DNA from: an uncultured Lachnospiraceae bacterium
GTDB lineage: Bacteria; Bacillota; Clostridia; Eubacteriales; Anaerofustaceae
Assembly (NCBI GenBank): GCA_944381375.1
Contig: CALWKX010000020.1
Span: 1 to 64,000 of the forward strand
DNA length: 64,000 nt
Reading direction: 5' to 3'
The notes beneath the pieces are model-generated. The model did not search any database. It was given only the letters and a program-made list of their open reading frames with translations, and was not told where the DNA came from. Positions 20,872 through 42,380 of the stretch are shown here, piece after piece (within the stretch, counting starts at the first letter, position 1; every line of letters begins with the position of its first letter). The position numbers and the translations under genes are program-made.

Positions 20872-22716
20872 TTGCATAAGGAAGAACAAATAAGAAATAT
20901 AGCCATAATTGCGCATGTAGATCACGGAAAGACCACTCTCGTTGATGCAATGCTCAAACAAAGCGGCGTCTATCGAGAGAACCAGCAAGTTGTGGAACGA
21001 GTAATGGATTCCAACGACCTGGAACGTGAGCGCGGGATCACTATCCTTGCTAAAAATACAGCCGTAGAGTATAAGAACACGAAAATCAATATAGTGGATA
21101 CTCCCGGCCACGCTGATTTTTCCGGAGAGGTGGAACGTATTCTCAAAATGGTAAACGGCGTTTTGCTTTTAGTGGACGCCTCCGATGGTCCGATGCCGCA
21201 AACGCGCTTCGTGCTTTCCAAATCTTTGGAGCTCGGACATAAAGTAATAGTGGTGATAAATAAAATCGACCGTCCTGACGCCAGGATAGATCAGGTTATA
21301 GATGAAATCCTGGATTTGTTCATAGAATTGGGCGCAAGCGATGAGCAGTTGGACAGTCCGTTTATATTTTGTTCGGCTAAAAAAGGAACGGCAAGCGTTG
21401 AGCAGGATGTTGAGGGAACAAATCTTATTCCTCTTTTTGAAACGATACTTGAATATATACCTTCGCCTCCTCGCAATAAAGAAATGCCGCTTCAAATGTT
21501 GATCTCATCCATAGATTACAACGAATTTGTCGGCAGAATCGCCATCGGACGAATAGAACGGGGCATGATAAAGCAAAATCAGGAGCTTGTCGTGTGCAAT
21601 TATCACGATAAAAATATGCTTAAAAAAGCCAAAGCAGTCAATATTTATCAATTTGAAGGATTGAGCAGAGTGAGTGTCACTGAAGCTGCAGCGGGAAATA
21701 TTATAGCGCTTTCAGGTATACCGGATATAACAATAGGAGATACGGTTTGTTCGGCGGAATGTCCGCAGGCTCTTGAATTCGCTCAAATTTCCGCGCCGAC
21801 TATTGAAATGACATTTTCTGTAAACGATTCGCCTTTTGCAGGCAAAGAAGGCAAATACGTTACCTCGCGCAATATACGCGACAGACTCGAAAGAGAGCTT
21901 TTGAAAGACGTCTCATTAAAAGTAAGCGAACTTGATACTACTGATTCTTTCAATGTAGCAGGACGAGGAGAAATGCATTTATCAATATTGATAGAAACTA
22001 TGCGCAGAGAAGGCTATGAGTTTCAGGTTTCGCCTCCTCGAGTGCTTATGAAGGAAATAAACGGTATAAAGAGCGAGCCTGTAGAAAGGCTTGTTGCGGA
22101 CGTTCCTCAGGAATGTGCGGGCGCGGTTATTGAAAAATTAGGGCAAAGGCGCGGAGAGTTGCTAAATATGACGCCTATGGGAGCCAGAATGAAATTGGAA
22201 TTTCTTGCGCCCTCAAGAGGGCTGTTCGGTTACAGAAGCGAGTTTCTGACAGATACCAAAGGAGAGGGCATAATGGCAAGCGTTTTTGATTCGTATGCCC
22301 CGTACAAAGGGACGCTTTCGCGACGTTCGCAAGGCAGTCTTATCGCCTATGAAGCCGGTGAAGCGATTACTTACGGTTTGTACAATGCTCAAGAAAGAGG
22401 CCGGCTTTTTATCGGGCCGAATACTCCTGTATACGAAGGTATGGTTGTAGGCATTTCCTCAAATTCTAAAGACATACCAGTAAATGTGTGTAAGAGAAAA
22501 CAGCTTACAAATATGCGCGCCACAGGACATGACGATGCTTTAAGGCTTGTGCCGCATTTGAAAATGAGTCTTGAGCAGTGCATGGAGTTTTTGGCGGATG
22601 ATGAACTTTTGGAGATAACTCCTAAGTCTTTGAGGATAAGAAAGCGTATTCTCAATCACGAACAAAGAATGAAAGCCCAAAGCCGTGAAAAGAGCGGCGC
22701 AGCCGGCATAAAATAA
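20872..22716 (+). CDS. bipA: Ribosome-associated GTPase BipA/TypA
   Basis: The 614-residue translational GTPase has G1 AHVDHGKTT, the switch [14 protein letters not shown]3 DTPGHADF and G4 [10 protein letters not shown], then EF-G-like domains and the TypA-specific C-terminus. It aids 50S assembly and stress adaptation. Start TTG at 20872 is set by AAGAGGA a few bases upstream and by alignment with the family N-terminus; the longer ATG frame would run through repeat P3. Its last codons (SGAAGIK) and stop fall inside cloverleaf P4, so the C-terminal tail has been shaped by the repeat. Confidence 0.96.
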
Positions 22717-22831
22717 AAAGAGAAAGAAAATCTTTCTCTTTTTATTTTATGCGCAAATTGAACGCCTGCGTTCAATTTGCCCAGCGGCAGAAGAAAGCGC
22801 AGCGCGCTTTCTTCTGCCGCGGCTGCGCCGC
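22694..22831. repeat. Cloverleaf palindrome P4, overlapping the end of bipA
   Basis: Closing stem GCGGCGCAGCC (22694-22704) pairs with 22821-22831. Hairpins: about 22 bp at 22707-22752, GCAAATTGAACGC with its complement (about 22753-22780), and GCGGCAGAAGAAAGCGC with its complement (22784-22820). The 5' closing arm codes for the last bipA residues, and the bipA TAA (22714-22716) is inside hairpin 1. That hairpin also ends in a T-rich run and may terminate bipA. Confidence 0.92.
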
Positions 22832-31284: not shown

Positions 31285-31291
31285 TTTATAC

Positions 31292-31373
31292 CTTAAGGGG
31301 CCTTGCGTATATCGGGGACAGATAAAAAGTAAAGCGCGCATTATGCGCGCTTTACTACATTAGCGGGGCGGGA
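31292..31373 (+). repeat. G-tract/hairpin module, copy B
   Basis: G-tracts at 31297-31300, 31314-31317, 31365-31368 and 31370-31372, with hairpin AGTAAAGCGCGCA-TTA-TGCGCGCTTTACT between the second and third. Cloverleaf P5 follows after about 40 nt. Confidence 0.85.
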
Positions 31374-31408
31374 ATTAATGAAGCGGGATTATCTGGCTCA
31401 AACGGCAA

Positions 31409-31508
31409 AGACAAGCGGGCGGGCGCGGCCAACGCTTAAGCGTTGGCTGAAGCGGCTTCGCCGCTTCAATGGCCGCTTCGCGGCCTGCCGCGCCCGCCCG
31501 CACTTGTC
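31409..31508. repeat. Cloverleaf palindrome P5
   Basis: Closing stem GCGGGCGGGCGCGGC (31415-31429) pairs with 31487-31501, extended by GACAAG/CTTGTC. Hairpins: CCAACGC-TTAA-GCGTTGG, TGAAGCGGC-TTC-GCCGCTTCA and GGCCGC-TTC-GCGGCC. The first two are nearly the same as in P1, the last two also occur in P7. Confidence 0.9.
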
Positions 31509-32542: not shown

Positions 32543-33304
32543 ATGAAGTTGTTGGAAGTAAAAAATCTCAAAAAAATATATACTCAGCGTTTTGCTCAGG
32601 CGTCAGTCACAGCACTTTCTAATGTTACCTTTGACGTAGATTACGGTGAGTATCTTGCAATAATGGGTGAAAGCGGAAGCGGAAAAACAACGCTGCTGAA
32701 TATTTTAGCGGCTTTGGATAAGCCGACAGGCGGAATCGTTGTATTGGAAGGCAGAAATATCATTGATATCAGCGAAAAAGATATTTCAGCTTTCAGACGT
32801 GATAATCTGGGATTCGTCTTTCAGGATTTTAATCTTTTGGATACGTTCAGTGTCAGAGACAATATATTTTTGCCTTTGGTACTAATGGATATGAAATATC
32901 CTGAAATGGAAAAAAGACTCAACAGCATAGCGGAATATTTGGGAATTGAGGATATTGTCGATAAATATCCGTATGAGATATCAGGAGGTCAAAAACAGCG
33001 TGCTGCAGTAGCCAGAGCCGTGATCACAAAACCGAAGCTCATCCTTGCTGACGAGCCTACAGGCGCTTTGGATTCACGTTCGACTGATTCACTCTTGGAG
33101 CTGTTTGAAAAGATTAATAACGACGGGCAAACTGTTATTATGGTTACACATTCAATTAAGGCGGCAAGCCATGCTAAAAGAGTGTTGTTTTTGAGAGACG
33201 GAGAAGTATTTCATCATCTTTACCGCGCCGATTTTTCAGTGGATAAAATGTATCAGAAAATATCCGATACGCTGTCAATGATAATGGCAGGTGATTTTAA
33301 ATGA
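32543..33304 (+). CDS. BceA-type ABC transporter ATPase
   Basis: The 253-residue ATPase has Walker A GESGSGKTT (about residue 42), Q-loop FQDFNLL, signature SGGQKQRAAVARA, Walker B LILADEPTGALD and the switch His in VTHS. It belongs to the MacB/LolD-like group that pairs with FtsX-domain permeases; with the 668-residue BceB-type permease next door it should remove or shield against cell-wall-active peptides. GAAAGGA precedes the ATG; it overlaps the permease by 4 nt. Confidence 0.93.
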   Translation: MKLLEVKNLKKIYTQRFAQASVTALSNVTFDVDYGEYLAIMGESGSGKTTLLNILAALDKPTGGIVVLEGRNIIDISEKDISAFRRDNLGFVFQDFNLLDTFSVRDNIFLPLVLMDMKYPEMEKRLNSIAEYLGIEDIVDKYPYEISGGQKQRAAVARAVITKPKLILADEPTGALDSRSTDSLLELFEKINNDGQTVIMVTHSIKAASHAKRVLFLRDGEVFHHLYRADFSVDKMYQKISDTLSMIMAGDFK

Positions 33305-35307
33305 GAAGAGGCTTTTATCTGAAACTTGCGCTTACAAATTTAAGAAAAAACGCAAGGCTTTATTTCCCATATATGCTTGCATCAATAGGCACAATAATGA
33401 TGTTTTACATTATATTGTTTCTTGCTTCAAACAGCGGGCTAGCGAATGTAATCCATGGAGGCTATGTCGGCGTGCTGCTTTCCTTGGGTGCAATAATAAT
33501 CGGTATTTTTTCAGCTATATTCTTGTTTTATACAAACAGTTTTGTTATCAAACAGCGTACTAGGGAAATAGGACTTTTCAATATCCTCGGTATGGATAAA
33601 CCGAATATCGCCAAAATGGTATTTTGGGAAACAGTCATTACATCGTCTATAAGTATTTTTCTGGGGCTCGTCTTTGGCATAGCTTTTTCAAAGCTTGTGT
33701 ATTTGCTGCTTGTAAAAATAATGCATTTTGACGTTTCCTTTAAATTCGAAATTTCTTCCGTTTCGGTTTATGTTACTATAATATATTTTTCTATAATCTT
33801 TATTGCCACTCTGCTGAGCAATCTCGCGCGTATATCCTTGGCAAAGCCTACAGAGCTGATACGTGCCGACAAAACGGGCGAAAAAGAGCCTAAAACAAAA
33901 AAAGCAGTTGCGATAATCGGCGTTCTGACTTTGGGCGCAGGATATTATATGGCTCTTAGGGTAGATAATCCGCTTGACGCATTCATGCTTTTCTTCGTTG
34001 CGGTAATTCTGGTGATTATAGGCACCTACTGTCTTTTTACGGCCGGAAGCATAGCTTTGTTGAAAGCGCTTAGGAAAAACAAAAGATATTACTATAAATT
34101 AAAGCACTTTATTTCCGTATCAGGCATGATATATCGCATGAAACAAAATGCGGTGGGCCTGGGTAATATATGTATTCTTTCAACTATGGTGCTGGTTATG
34201 ATTTCTACAACGCTCAGCATGTATCTGGGCTATGAAGACGCAATCAGACGGCAGTGTCCCCGCAATATCGAAATAATGAGCGCAACGCTTGACAACATAT
34301 CAAAACAGGATGCGGATATACTTTATGATATTGTCTGCGACAAACTTGAGGCGGAAAATATAGACACATTAAATATGCTCAACTACAGATATACGTATCT
34401 CAACGTGAAAAGAAACGGCGATACTTTTACATTTTATGACCACGATAATTCAGGCTCCGAAGAAAACATATACGTATTATACTTTATGACGCTGGAGGAC
34501 TATAATCATCTTAATGGCTCAAATGTCGCTCTTAGCGAAAATGAGGTAATCTTCTACAGCGCAGAGAACTCTTATCAATACGAAAGCTTACGTCTTGGCG
34601 CTGAGGAATATAGCATAAAACTTATGCCTTCTTCGTTCAATATTGAAGAAAGATCCATAGGCTCGTACGCTGATTTATTATATGTGGTAATGGCTGATGA
34701 AACTGCTATTGAAAATGTCTACAATATGATAGCTCAAGGCATAACTCCTTATACAGGTCTTAGGTTATATATTGGATTTGACCTTGATATGCCGATAGAA
34801 GATCAGGATTATATAGGACAAATGATTGAACAAACAATTACAAATGCTGAAGGCGGACGTTTTGATAATGTTTATGTCAGAATAGCTGCATACATAAGCG
34901 AAGATTTCTTTTCCATGTACGGCGGACTGTATTTTCTCGCTATCTTTTTAGGCTTGGTGTTTATCATGGCGGCAGTGCTGATAATTTATTACAAGCAAGT
35001 CTCAGAAGGATATGAAGATAAGAAAAAGTTTGAAATTATGCAAAATGTCGGTATGAGTAAAAAAGAAGTCAAAGCCGCTATCCGTTCACAGATCCTTACG
35101 GTATTTTTCCTTCCGCTTATCACATCTGTAATTCATGTTATTGTGGCTTTTCAAATGATCTCTCAGCTTGTAGGAGTGCTTGGGATTACGAATATTAAGC
35201 TTATGTTCATGTGTACATTAGGCACTGTGATATTATTCGTTGTTTTGTATTCCGCAGTTTATGCGCTCACTGCCAAAGCTTACTACAGAATCGTCGGCAA
35301 CGTATAA
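33301..35307 (+). CDS. BceB-type ABC transporter permease (FtsX family)
   Basis: The 668-residue permease has about ten membrane segments: one near the N-terminus, a group at residues 60-220, a pair around 280-305 and three at the C-terminus. A soluble extracellular domain (about 310-530) separates the two halves. This BceB layout fits peptide-antibiotic detoxification pumps, whose extracellular domain senses the drug and signals to a BceS kinase. KQRTREIGLFNILGM is the conserved FtsX coupling motif. No bceRS two-component genes are nearby. Confidence 0.92.
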   Translation: MRRGFYLKLALTNLRKNARLYFPYMLASIGTIMMFYIILFLASNSGLANVIHGGYVGVLLSLGAIIIGIFSAIFLFYTNSFVIKQRTREIGLFNILGMDKPNIAKMVFWETVITSSISIFLGLVFGIAFSKLVYLLLVKIMHFDVSFKFEISSVSVYVTIIYFSIIFIATLLSNLARISLAKPTELIRADKTGEKEPKTKKAVAIIGVLTLGAGYYMALRVDNPLDAFMLFFVAVILVIIGTYCLFTAGSIALLKALRKNKRYYYKLKHFISVSGMIYRMKQNAVGLGNICILSTMVLVMISTTLSMYLGYEDAIRRQCPRNIEIMSATLDNISKQDADILYDIVCDKLEAENIDTLNMLNYRYTYLNVKRNGDTFTFYDHDNSGSEENIYVLYFMTLEDYNHLNGSNVALSENEVIFYSAENSYQYESLRLGAEEYSIKLMPSSFNIEERSIGSYADLLYVVMADETAIENVYNMIAQGITPYTGLRLYIGFDLDMPIEDQDYIGQMIEQTITNAEGGRFDNVYVRIAAYISEDFFSMYGGLYFLAIFLGLVFIMAAVLIIYYKQVSEGYEDKKKFEIMQNVGMSKKEVKAAIRSQILTVFFLPLITSVIHVIVAFQMISQLVGVLGITNIKLMFMCTLGTVILFVVLYSAVYALTAKAYYRIVGNV

Positions 35308-35324
35308 GCTTATATTCATATTAC

Positions 35325-35482
35325 GCAAAACAGCCAAATTTTGATAAGTTCCCACTCTGCTTAGGTAGAAAAAAACGCGCGTAGCAACCTGCTGAGACAA
35401 AATCAGAATTGTTTTTGAAGGGAAACAGGCAAAAGCGCGTTTTTTTCTTTTGATTTTGTCCCATATCAGGGTAATGCCCGTC
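35325..35482 (-). repeat. G-tract/hairpin module, copy K (divergent, long hairpin)
   Basis: On the minus strand CCCTGATATGGGACAAAATC corresponds to the family 5' part and CTAAGCAGAGTGGGAAC to the 3' part; G-runs are reduced to three. The outer hairpin AGAAAAAAACGCGC with its complement spans about 90 nt and encloses a further inverted repeat. It lies just after the permease gene and may also terminate it. Confidence 0.5.
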
Positions 35483-35533
35483 AAAGTCTTTTCCGCTCTG
35501 CATACGCTGAAATGTTTTGTCTTTTTTATCTTA

Positions 35534-35561
35534 TTGCATATCTTATTTTTTTAAGTATAAT
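35534..35561 (+). promoter_or_regulatory. Promoter of the PAP2 gene (possible leaderless start)
   Basis: TTGCAT (35534-35539) and TATAAT (35556-35561) are 16 nt apart. The ATG at 35568 is 6 nt past the -10, so transcription would begin at or next to the start codon. Confidence 0.6.
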
Positions 35562-35567
35562 AATGGC

Positions 35568-36119
35568 ATGATAGAAAAAATAGTCGATATTGATTTTGCT
35601 ATTCTTGATTGGATAAGAGAGTATCTCACGTGCGGGTTTCTGGATTGGTTCATGCCGAAAATTACGCTTTTGGGCAACGGCGGCATCTTTTTTATTATAC
35701 TTTGTATTATCTTTGTTTTTTTTAAAAGAACGCGCAAATTGGGGTTAATGATGGCGGCAGGGCTTATTTTGTGCCTGATAACATGCAATCTTATTTTAAA
35801 GCCGCTTGTGGCGCGGGAAAGGCCCTTTTATATAAACGAGAGCGTTCTTCCTTTGCTTATCAAAACGCCGGGAGAATTTTCGTTCCCTTCAGGCCATACA
35901 ATTGTGAGTTTTACAAGCGCGTTTATTGCAATAAACCATGACAAACGTTTGGGAGCAGGATTGCTGGTGCTTGCAGTTATAATAGCTTTTTCAAGGCTTT
36001 ACCTTTATGTGCATTATCCGACGGATATACTTGCGTCTGTTATATTAGCGGCGTTGATAGCTTTAGTGGTTGTAAAGGGCGCTGATTTTATAGAAGGAAA
36101 GAAAACCAGGCGGGCTTGA
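35568..36119 (+). CDS. PAP2-family phosphatase
   Basis: The 183-residue membrane protein has the three PAP2 active-site motifs: KPLVARERP, PSGHT and SRLYLYVHYPTD. Such enzymes remove phosphate from undecaprenyl pyrophosphate or lipid phosphates at the membrane. The start at 35568 is chosen for the family-like N-terminus (MIEKIVDIDFAILDWI); no ribosome site is present and the mRNA may be leaderless. The last codons (KTRRA, stop TGA at 36117-36119) are inside the closing stem of cloverleaf P6. Confidence 0.88.
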   Translation: MIEKIVDIDFAILDWIREYLTCGFLDWFMPKITLLGNGGIFFIILCIIFVFFKRTRKLGLMMAAGLILCLITCNLILKPLVARERPFYINESVLPLLIKTPGEFSFPSGHTIVSFTSAFIAINHDKRLGAGLLVLAVIIAFSRLYLYVHYPTDILASVILAALIALVVVKGADFIEGKKTRRA

Positions 36120-36287
36120 GGCGCGCAGCGCGGCAATAGACGTCAAAGGAAAAATATTTTTCCTTTGACGTCTATTGCTTATCCGCGCGAAGCGTTAAGC
36201 TTCGCGCGGATGCACAAAAGAAGGAATTGAAAGTAACCTTTCAATTCCTTCTTTTGTGCTGCGCGCCTCAAGCCCGCCATGGTTTTC
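36101..36287. repeat. Cloverleaf palindrome P6, overlapping the end of the PAP2 gene
   Basis: The longest copy. Closing arms 36101-36127 and 36260-36287 pair over about 27 bp with one bulge. Hairpins: GCAATAGACGTCAAAGGA with its complement (36133-36178), TCCGCGCGAAGC with its complement (36182-36210) and a 21-bp stem at 36212-36259. The PAP2 stop codon lies within the 5' closing arm. Confidence 0.93.
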
Positions 36288-36377
36288 TTCAAGCATGTTC
36301 TCACGTATCATTAATTGCCCTCAAAACCTTTTTTAATAATAAATATTCTACTATAATATTTAATAGGTGATTAATAT

Positions 36378-37115
36378 ATGAAAATAACAAAAAGACAAAG
36401 ACGTTTTCTGAGCGTCATATTCATTATTACTGTAATTGAATTTATCGCTGCAGTGTTGAAGGCCGTTTTCGCTGATATCAATTACCGCGCGGAAAATATA
36501 ACTTTAGCGCTTTTATGCCTTGTGATGATAGCCGTTTTATTCTTTCCTGTCATATTAAAAAAACTGTGGTCCGTGTCTGTTCCCAATTCCATGTATGTAT
36601 TGTTCATAATTTTCTGTTTTTGCGCAATTATACTCGGTGATGTAAAAAACTTCTATTCACGGTTTGCTCATTGGGACGATCTTTTGCATTTTTGCTCAGG
36701 CATGCTTTTATCAGTGCTCGGATTTATGCTTGTCAATACATTAAATAATTCGGAAAATATGAATATATCTCTTAATCCGTTTTTCGTCGCCGCCGTGGCT
36801 TTTTGCTTTACGATGACTGTTCAGGCTCTCTGGGAAATATATGAATTTTTAAGCGATGAGTTTCTTGGAACTAACGCCCAAACGTTTATGCAAACAACTA
36901 CAGGTTCTTTTATCGGGCCTGATGACGTCCCTTTAGTGGGACATGAGGCGTTAAGAGATACAATGACTGATTTTATGCTTGACGGACTCGGAGGGCTGAT
37001 AATTTCCGTACTGGGCTATTTAGAACTGAAAAAAGGCAAAAAAGGATTTTCAACAGACAAAATGAAAATCAGCAGCGAAAAAAACAGCGTCAACTCCAAA
37101 AGCGACGGCGCATGA
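36378..37115 (+). CDS. DUF2238/YjdF-like integral membrane protein
   Basis: The 245-residue protein has about six membrane segments and a conserved patch FAHWDDLLHFCSGMLLSVLG followed by WEIYEFLSDEFLG and DTMTDFMLDGLGG. The paired acidic/His residues are typical of the DUF2238 (YjdF-like) family, whose function is unknown. AGGTGAT precedes the ATG. A Lys/Ser-rich cytosolic tail ends it. It stands alone between P6 and murI. Confidence 0.78.
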   Translation: MKITKRQRRFLSVIFIITVIEFIAAVLKAVFADINYRAENITLALLCLVMIAVLFFPVILKKLWSVSVPNSMYVLFIIFCFCAIILGDVKNFYSRFAHWDDLLHFCSGMLLSVLGFMLVNTLNNSENMNISLNPFFVAAVAFCFTMTVQALWEIYEFLSDEFLGTNAQTFMQTTTGSFIGPDDVPLVGHEALRDTMTDFMLDGLGGLIISVLGYLELKKGKKGFSTDKMKISSEKNSVNSKSDGA

Positions 37116-42161: not shown

Positions 42162-42243
42162 AAAGGGGCCGGCCGTATATCGGGGCGGATGTATACGGAA
42201 AGCGCGCGTTGTGCGCGCTTTCCAACATAAGCGGGGCGGGAAT
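42162..42243 (+). repeat. G-tract/hairpin module, copy C
   Basis: It carries four G-tracts in AAAGGGGCC, TATCGGGGCGG and AGCGGGGCGGG. The hairpin GGAAAGCGCGC/GCGCGCTTTCC lies between the second and third. Five nt after the GDPD stop. P7 follows after about 43 nt. Confidence 0.85.
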
Positions 42244-42285
42244 TAGTGGTGTGTCCCGAATACTTCGCTATGACGCAGCATGCAG

Positions 42286-42380
42286 GGGCGGGCGCGGCGG
42301 GCCGCTTCGCGGCCTCTGAAGCGGCTGAAGCCGCTTCAGCCGCAGCTTGCGGAATCCGTAAGCTGCGGCCGCGCCCGCCC
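42286..42380. repeat. Cloverleaf palindrome P7
   Basis: Closing stem GGGCGGGCGCGGC (42286-42298) pairs with 42368-42380. Hairpins: GGCCGC-TTC-GCGGCC (42300-42314), TGAAGCGGCT-GA-AGCCGCTTCA (42317-42338), GCCGCAGCTT with its complement (about 42339-42369). The first two are the last two of P5 in reverse order. Confidence 0.9.

Follow-up and report, generated by a model that had tools for sequence, protein, structure and literature searches.

Group IIC introns are mobile elements that choose terminator-like hairpins. The REP and REPIN sequences of the GTAG and CGTC super-families, as presented in the available sections of the source, are dispersed, palindromic and extragenic, are located mostly past the ends of genes and in the gaps that separate unidirectional or convergent ones, and the CGTC REPs are said to lack a dedicated transposase (PMC3733652). 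The GC clusters of yeast mitochondria are described, in the part of the source at hand, with a main cluster of 42 nt, present in many identical copies and flanked by AG or ACT direct repeats (PMC4478555). With respect to gene ends, the accessible text of another study states that some terminators overlap upstream genes and that the E. coli terminator tR2, located a few bp past the stop codon, is almost fully repressed by ribosomes (PMC4824070). Quasipalindrome template switching, according to the portion of the source available, is well established and brings imperfect inverted repeats closer to perfection (PMC7202029).

We analysed a stretch of DNA of 64,000 nucleotides (the window), in which a PAP2 phosphatase gene ends in a four-way cloverleaf, termed P6, at positions 36097-36290. 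Its DNA fold amounts to -106 kcal/mol (z -21, 0 of 200 shuffles as good) and its RNA fold to -153.2 kcal/mol (z -20.5, again with no shuffle as good). A strict version of our cloverleaf detector called 5 cloverleaves in the window; in 5 dinucleotide shuffles of the same sequence, it called 0. The inverted arms located by repeat search, 36097-36129 and 36258-36290, are 33 nt each and 128 nt apart, and the closing stem that they form contains about 31 matched bases as a whole. Its perfect part comprises 21 bp (36109-36129 with 36258-36278), including GGCGGGCTTGAGGCGCGCAG at 36109-36128 and the reverse complement at 36259-36278; the outer part is imperfect, with a lone unpaired T near 36279 and, further out, GAAAG opposite GAAG. 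Three perfect hairpins of 23, 13 and 22 bp lie inside the closing stem. The last PAP2 codons and the TGA fall within the 5' closing arm, as the first-pass annotation had reported with correct coordinates and sequence, and its further statement that the downstream partner is an inverted repeat of this gene-end arm likewise agrees with the repeat search. The features of the locus are as follows.

35571-36119, + strand: PAP2 phosphatase open reading frame (PF01569, E 6.8e-21), start approximate, TGA at 36117-36119
36097-36108, + strand: outer imperfect 5' arm, A-rich, GAAAGAAAACCA, PAP2 coding (from sequence and repeat search)
36109-36119, + strand: GC-rich outer 5' arm GGCGGGCTTGA, PAP2 codons and TGA, locus-specific and outside the shared repeat end
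36120-36267, unstranded: type-A cloverleaf repeat proper, GGCGCGCAGC to GCTGCGCGCC, with the end GGCGCGCAGCG common to other copies
36133-36178, unstranded: hairpin 1, a perfect 23-bp palindrome
36181-36211, unstranded: hairpin 2, a perfect 13-bp stem with a 5-nt loop
36212-36259, unstranded: hairpin 3, a perfect 22-bp stem with a 4-nt loop
36268-36278, + strand: outer 3' arm TCAAGCCCGCC, an inverted match to the PAP2 tail
36279-36290, + strand: outermost 3' arm ATGGTTTTCTTC, in which a single base is unpaired; UGG-UUUUCUU past the stem, similar to a terminator U-tract

A literature search retrieved no report of such cloverleaf repeats, and each of the described systems shares only some of their properties. 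Like REPs, the cloverleaf copies are dispersed, extragenic and palindromic and lie near gene 3' ends. However, REPs, in the sections of the REP source available, measure 20-40 bp and consist of a conserved sequence plus a tag, whereas the cloverleaf repeats measure about 80-170 bp and combine conserved closing stems with divergent hairpins; at its foot, P6 carries the bases TTGA / TCAA (by reading) instead of the GTAG or CGTC tag, and its core of 148 bp holds three hairpins. A gene for the Y1 (RAYT/IS200) transposase that goes with REPs (PF01797) was found in 8 of 13 genomes of the family and in neither of the two cloverleaf carriers, the own genome (G000) and a genome from a different genus within that family (G004), an absence that is uncertain given completeness values of 92.65% and 84%, respectively. 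With the yeast GC clusters, the repeats have in common that they are GC-rich, palindromic, dispersed and modular units in an AT-rich genome, but those clusters are short, their copies are identical, and a three-hairpin architecture does not appear in the part of the source at hand (PMC4478555). As in MITEs, terminal inverted repeats are common to the copies. Intrinsic terminators likewise have an A-tract, a GC stem and a U-tract where a gene ends, but where P6 has its 148-nt cloverleaf, they have a loop of a few bases. In comparison to group IIC introns, P6 is far too short for an intron ORF, and a search of 36050-36330 against Rfam gave no match at or above the gathering score, the sub-threshold matches being mostly hairpin microRNA models.

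BLAST of P6 against its own genome yielded nothing beyond P6 itself and its own palindrome arms at E 1e-3, hence its hairpins were not copied from elsewhere in the genome at this threshold, and phage and plasmid collections gave no match at E 1e-3 either. A gapped type-A pattern, which is narrow, was present in 1 of 391 genomes of the class, namely the own genome; the bare 11-mer occurs in 32 of 67 genomes of the order, with facing pairs, by reading, in the own genome only. No target-site duplication was seen by eye at P6.

P6 belongs to a dispersed family with 41 copies in 1.04 Mb of its own genome. The detector, which requires a GC-rich closing stem around at least 2 perfect hairpins, found 39 in 1,043,758 bases of a genome totalling 1.54 Mb, and two further copies of the window were added from a pattern match and by eye. 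This count is a lower bound, as the elements at L060:13626-13738 and L118:17949-18045, which have A-tract/T-tract outer arms, look by eye like cloverleaves that the detector missed. The architecture is constant among copies, while the hairpin sequences vary, with some likeness within types; the inner hairpins are thus hypervariable yet perfect or nearly perfect. By sequence, the closing stems group into a few types, among them type A with GGCGCGCAGCG, which includes P6, and type B with GGGCGGGCGCGGC, so that copies share terminal inverted repeats (GGCGCGCAGCG, GGGCGGGCGCGGC and, in G004, GGAGGGGCGGCGG). None of the 41 copies lies inside a gene, and a gene reads towards the copy in 35 of them, at a median distance of 27 nt from the stop codon. 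Convergent genes flank 15 of 36 copies, a share above that of such regions in the intergenic DNA as a whole (23.2 of 125.8 kb). A further cloverleaf of the window is located at 22694-22831, where the gene 20872-22716 ends in the first hairpin (TAA 22714-22716).

The border of the repeat in P6 can be placed by comparison between copies. The genome contains 11 occurrences of GGCGCGCAGCG, of which 10 are cloverleaf arms (the exception is on L091), against 0 for a reversed-pattern control, and in P6 it begins at 36120, the first base past the PAP2 TGA. Two other type-A copies, L043 and L044, resemble each other over the whole core, and their likeness stops within a few nt of its ends. The shared end from 36120 and the likeness stopping at the same border indicate that the repeat proper spans 36120-36267, or 148 bp. 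The part of the stem that matches PAP2 (36097-36119 with 36268-36290) therefore belongs to the site and not to the shared repeat, in agreement with the first-pass view of the outer arms as inverted matches to PAP2 coding sequence; they are locus-specific and absent from other family members.

Our preferred reading, to which we assign a probability of roughly 0.5, is that P6 is a cloverleaf repeat (36120-36267) at the apex of the intrinsic terminator of PAP2; we infer the order of events, the mobility of the repeat and termination itself. The ancestral terminator stem would have been (CCA)GGCGGGCTTGA paired with TCAAGCCCGCC(A)TGG, with AAAGAAAA on one side and UUUUCUU on the other, and its 5' arm would have consisted of the PAP2 tail and stop codon from the outset. 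The 3' arm would then match the gene end simply because terminators are inverted repeats. The repeat may have inserted into the loop of this hairpin, and the insertion would have lengthened the terminator to a long closing stem with three hairpins. Several observations bear on this proposal. The GC-rich stem GGCGGGCTTGA with UUUUCUU after UGG at the gene end has the layout of an intrinsic terminator, and when the P6 flanks are joined without the core, they form a hairpin of -30.0 kcal/mol followed by UUUUCUU. With arms of at least 11, 8 of 70 terminator-like hairpins in this genome overlap a stop codon, while shuffles contain none of either kind; with arms of at least 7, the figures are 14 of 128 versus 3.0 of 20.7 for each round of shuffling. 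Inverted repeats of the A/GC/T kind whose long arms enclose 30-220 nt number 18 in 1.04 Mb of the own genome versus 7 in three shuffles, 6 of the 18 being listed cloverleaves; 258 kb of G004 and 314 kb of other relatives contain 0. A terminator scan of 35400-36500, in which loops were limited to 3-8 nt, did not call P6. The near-complete repression of tR2 by ribosomes in E. coli also argues against the proposal, and the existence of terminators that overlap upstream genes argues for it (PMC4824070).

The other copies of the family speak to the outer arms in general. The total closing stem reaches at least 18 matched bases in 14 of 41 copies, which we call extended; 27 of 41 are without such an extension, and several of these come as close as about 13 nt or less to the end of a gene. 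Over the outermost 8 matched nt of their 5' arm, A outnumbers T in 14 of 14 extended copies (61 A, 10 T), as it does in terminators built of A-tract, stem and T-tract, and a run test on the 5' side of these copies gave 7 for A-runs versus 1 for T-runs. Against the terminator reading, four-T runs within 20 nt are present on the 3' side in only 6 of 14, and one extended copy, L110:18338, lies between genes called divergent by a simple gene caller. An earlier rule for extended copies, which misfiled perfect long stems and was later replaced, had given 17 extended copies (13 A>T, 2 T>A, 2 ties). Under this earlier rule, the 5' flanks of non-extended copies are also A-rich (16 A>T and 5 T>A among 24), so that the A bias of the extended arms supports the terminator reading only weakly.

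The ends of related PAP2 genes do not carry a cloverleaf, at least among the nearest relatives (35-43% identical). A scan of the genome contigs for PAP2 revealed a single relative, on L041, which is 43% identical and whose stop codon is followed after ~17 nt by the next gene, with no terminator-like hairpin in between. In G010, however, the PAP2 end is itself a stop-overlapping terminator-like hairpin (AAGGCGGCTTAA-AACCGCCTTTTGCTTTTT), with an arm, GGCGGCTTAA, similar to the P6 arm GGCGGGCTTGA. PAP2 of G004 and of G011 has a simple terminator-like hairpin soon past the stop, and that of G009 about 50 nt past it. Hence, the overlap between gene end and arm in P6 is respectably explained in an ordinary way, by a terminator whose arm had included the stop codon all along. 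The argument that one arm must have been copied from gene sequence is thereby not compelling, since a stop-overlapping terminator gives the same relation between the arms without any repeat.

As a close rival to the terminator-apex reading, the repeat could have inserted right past the stop codon, whereupon, in the course of replication, the nascent strand folded back onto the closing stem and extended outwards, copying ~23 nt of the PAP2 end in inverted form onto the far side; the same template switching would keep the inner hairpins perfect. We consider this possible, at odds well short of even. It is in line with this that the outer arms are specific to their locus, adjoin the core stem without a gap and vary in length. 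The same holds for the cloverleaf at 22694, where the outer arms, ATGAAAGC[C/T]CAAAGCCG, again are coding sequence on one side, with two apparently synonymous differences (by reading), and have little likeness to a terminator, of which they would make a poor one. Yet 27 of 41 copies carry no extension even though several of them sit within about 13 nt of a stop codon, the A bias on the 5' arm in 14 of 14 is unpredicted unless the source is always an A-rich 5' flank, and the similar stop-overlapping arm in G010 is left unexplained. The idea that flanking DNA is duplicated in inverted orientation, put forward in the first-pass annotation, thus fails as a general habit of the family, and survives as a plausible account of this locus in the form of quasipalindrome template switching. 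The same annotation had regarded divergence of the arms in other strains without compensating change as evidence against copying; uncompensated, one-sided indels already separate the two P6 arms from each other outside 36109-36278.

A further indication of such copying stems from the sister family in G004. One element of this genome, used as a query, gave 48 matches, which include second matches to the palindromic arms of the same copy and correspond to ~40 copies of a related cloverleaf; against the own genome, G009, G010 and G003, it gave 0 matches. An alignment of 8 copies shows both partners exchanged at 18 of 56 pairs, with 42 two-sided versus 3 one-sided cells, and 97.9% of cells are paired, a value that 0 of 500 shuffles attained. 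The two-sided changes are concentrated in hairpin 3 (15 of 18 pairs). The 37 parsed segments, of which 26 are hairpin 3, 9 are hairpin 1 picked from the wrong strand and 2 are truncated, together hold 740 folded pairs, and only 4 of these are G-T. Since stepwise compensation would leave more intermediates than are seen, this suggests that the G004 helices changed by arm-to-arm copying, and both counts also favor template switching as the origin of the P6 arms. At the G004 loci (L144:101-229, L150-L169), hairpins 1 and 2 are conserved and hairpin 3 is hypervariable; the 5' flanks are often G-rich and the 3' flanks often C-rich.

A broader proposal, which we offer as speculative and probably too far-reaching, is that the helices of the cloverleaf evolve by self-templated arm-to-arm copying, in which both arms change together and almost without intermediates, and that the same copying would write host sequence such as the PAP2 end into the closing stem, turning a parasite's insertion into a new gene terminator. 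Independent of this proposal, the repeat family is more unusual than the arm overlap, as its architecture is common to two genera while both arms turn over at once. Dispersed palindromic repeats are usually recognised by a conserved sequence; here, the fold is kept and the sequence of the hairpins turns over. Together with the different closing stems in the two genera, this means that sequence searches would miss the relationship. Should the arms be maintained by template switching, these repeats would document this process as it occurs in nature; should the repeats settle in terminators, they would illustrate how mobile DNA can persist where genes end and leave the genes intact.

It is unlikely, in our judgement, that the outer arms are a further hypervariable helix of the element itself, whose 5' arm would have supplied the last PAP2 codons and the stop. 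The inner hairpins are hypervariable and still perfect or nearly so, an outer helix could be the same, and GGCGGGC is similar to a portion of GGGCGGGCGCGGC, the closing stem of type B. However, most copies have no outer helix, the L043/L044 likeness is confined to the stretch between the core ends, and the PAP2 tail after YPTDILA, at 27 residues compared with 23-31 in four relatives (by reading), has the length of the relatives' tails. Moreover, only 1 of 9 G004 flank pairs (L077) resembles an inverted repeat, an imperfect one by eye with a mild score of 8. That P6 is a product of chance or of assembly, the genome being an assembly in 38 contigs, is highly improbable in view of its z of -21, the 0 detections in 5 shuffles and the same architecture in another genus.

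Further elements of the window are worth recording. The type-B closing stem GGGCGGGCGCGGC sits in a longer composite repeat of about 225 bp, which is found at about 1680-1901, 31286-31501 and 42165-42380 and consists, in this order, of CGTATATCGGGG, a hairpin AAAGCGCGC..GCGCGCTTT, GCGGGGCGGGAATTA and then the type-B cloverleaf. Terminator-like arms, AAAAAAACGCG and CGCGTTTTTTT, are also located at 35369-35446, downstream of the ORF 33301-35307; the 56 nt between them contain no strong hairpins and may be a further loop insertion or what remains of one. Finally, a T-box leader RNA (Rfam RF00230) is located at 2069-2315.
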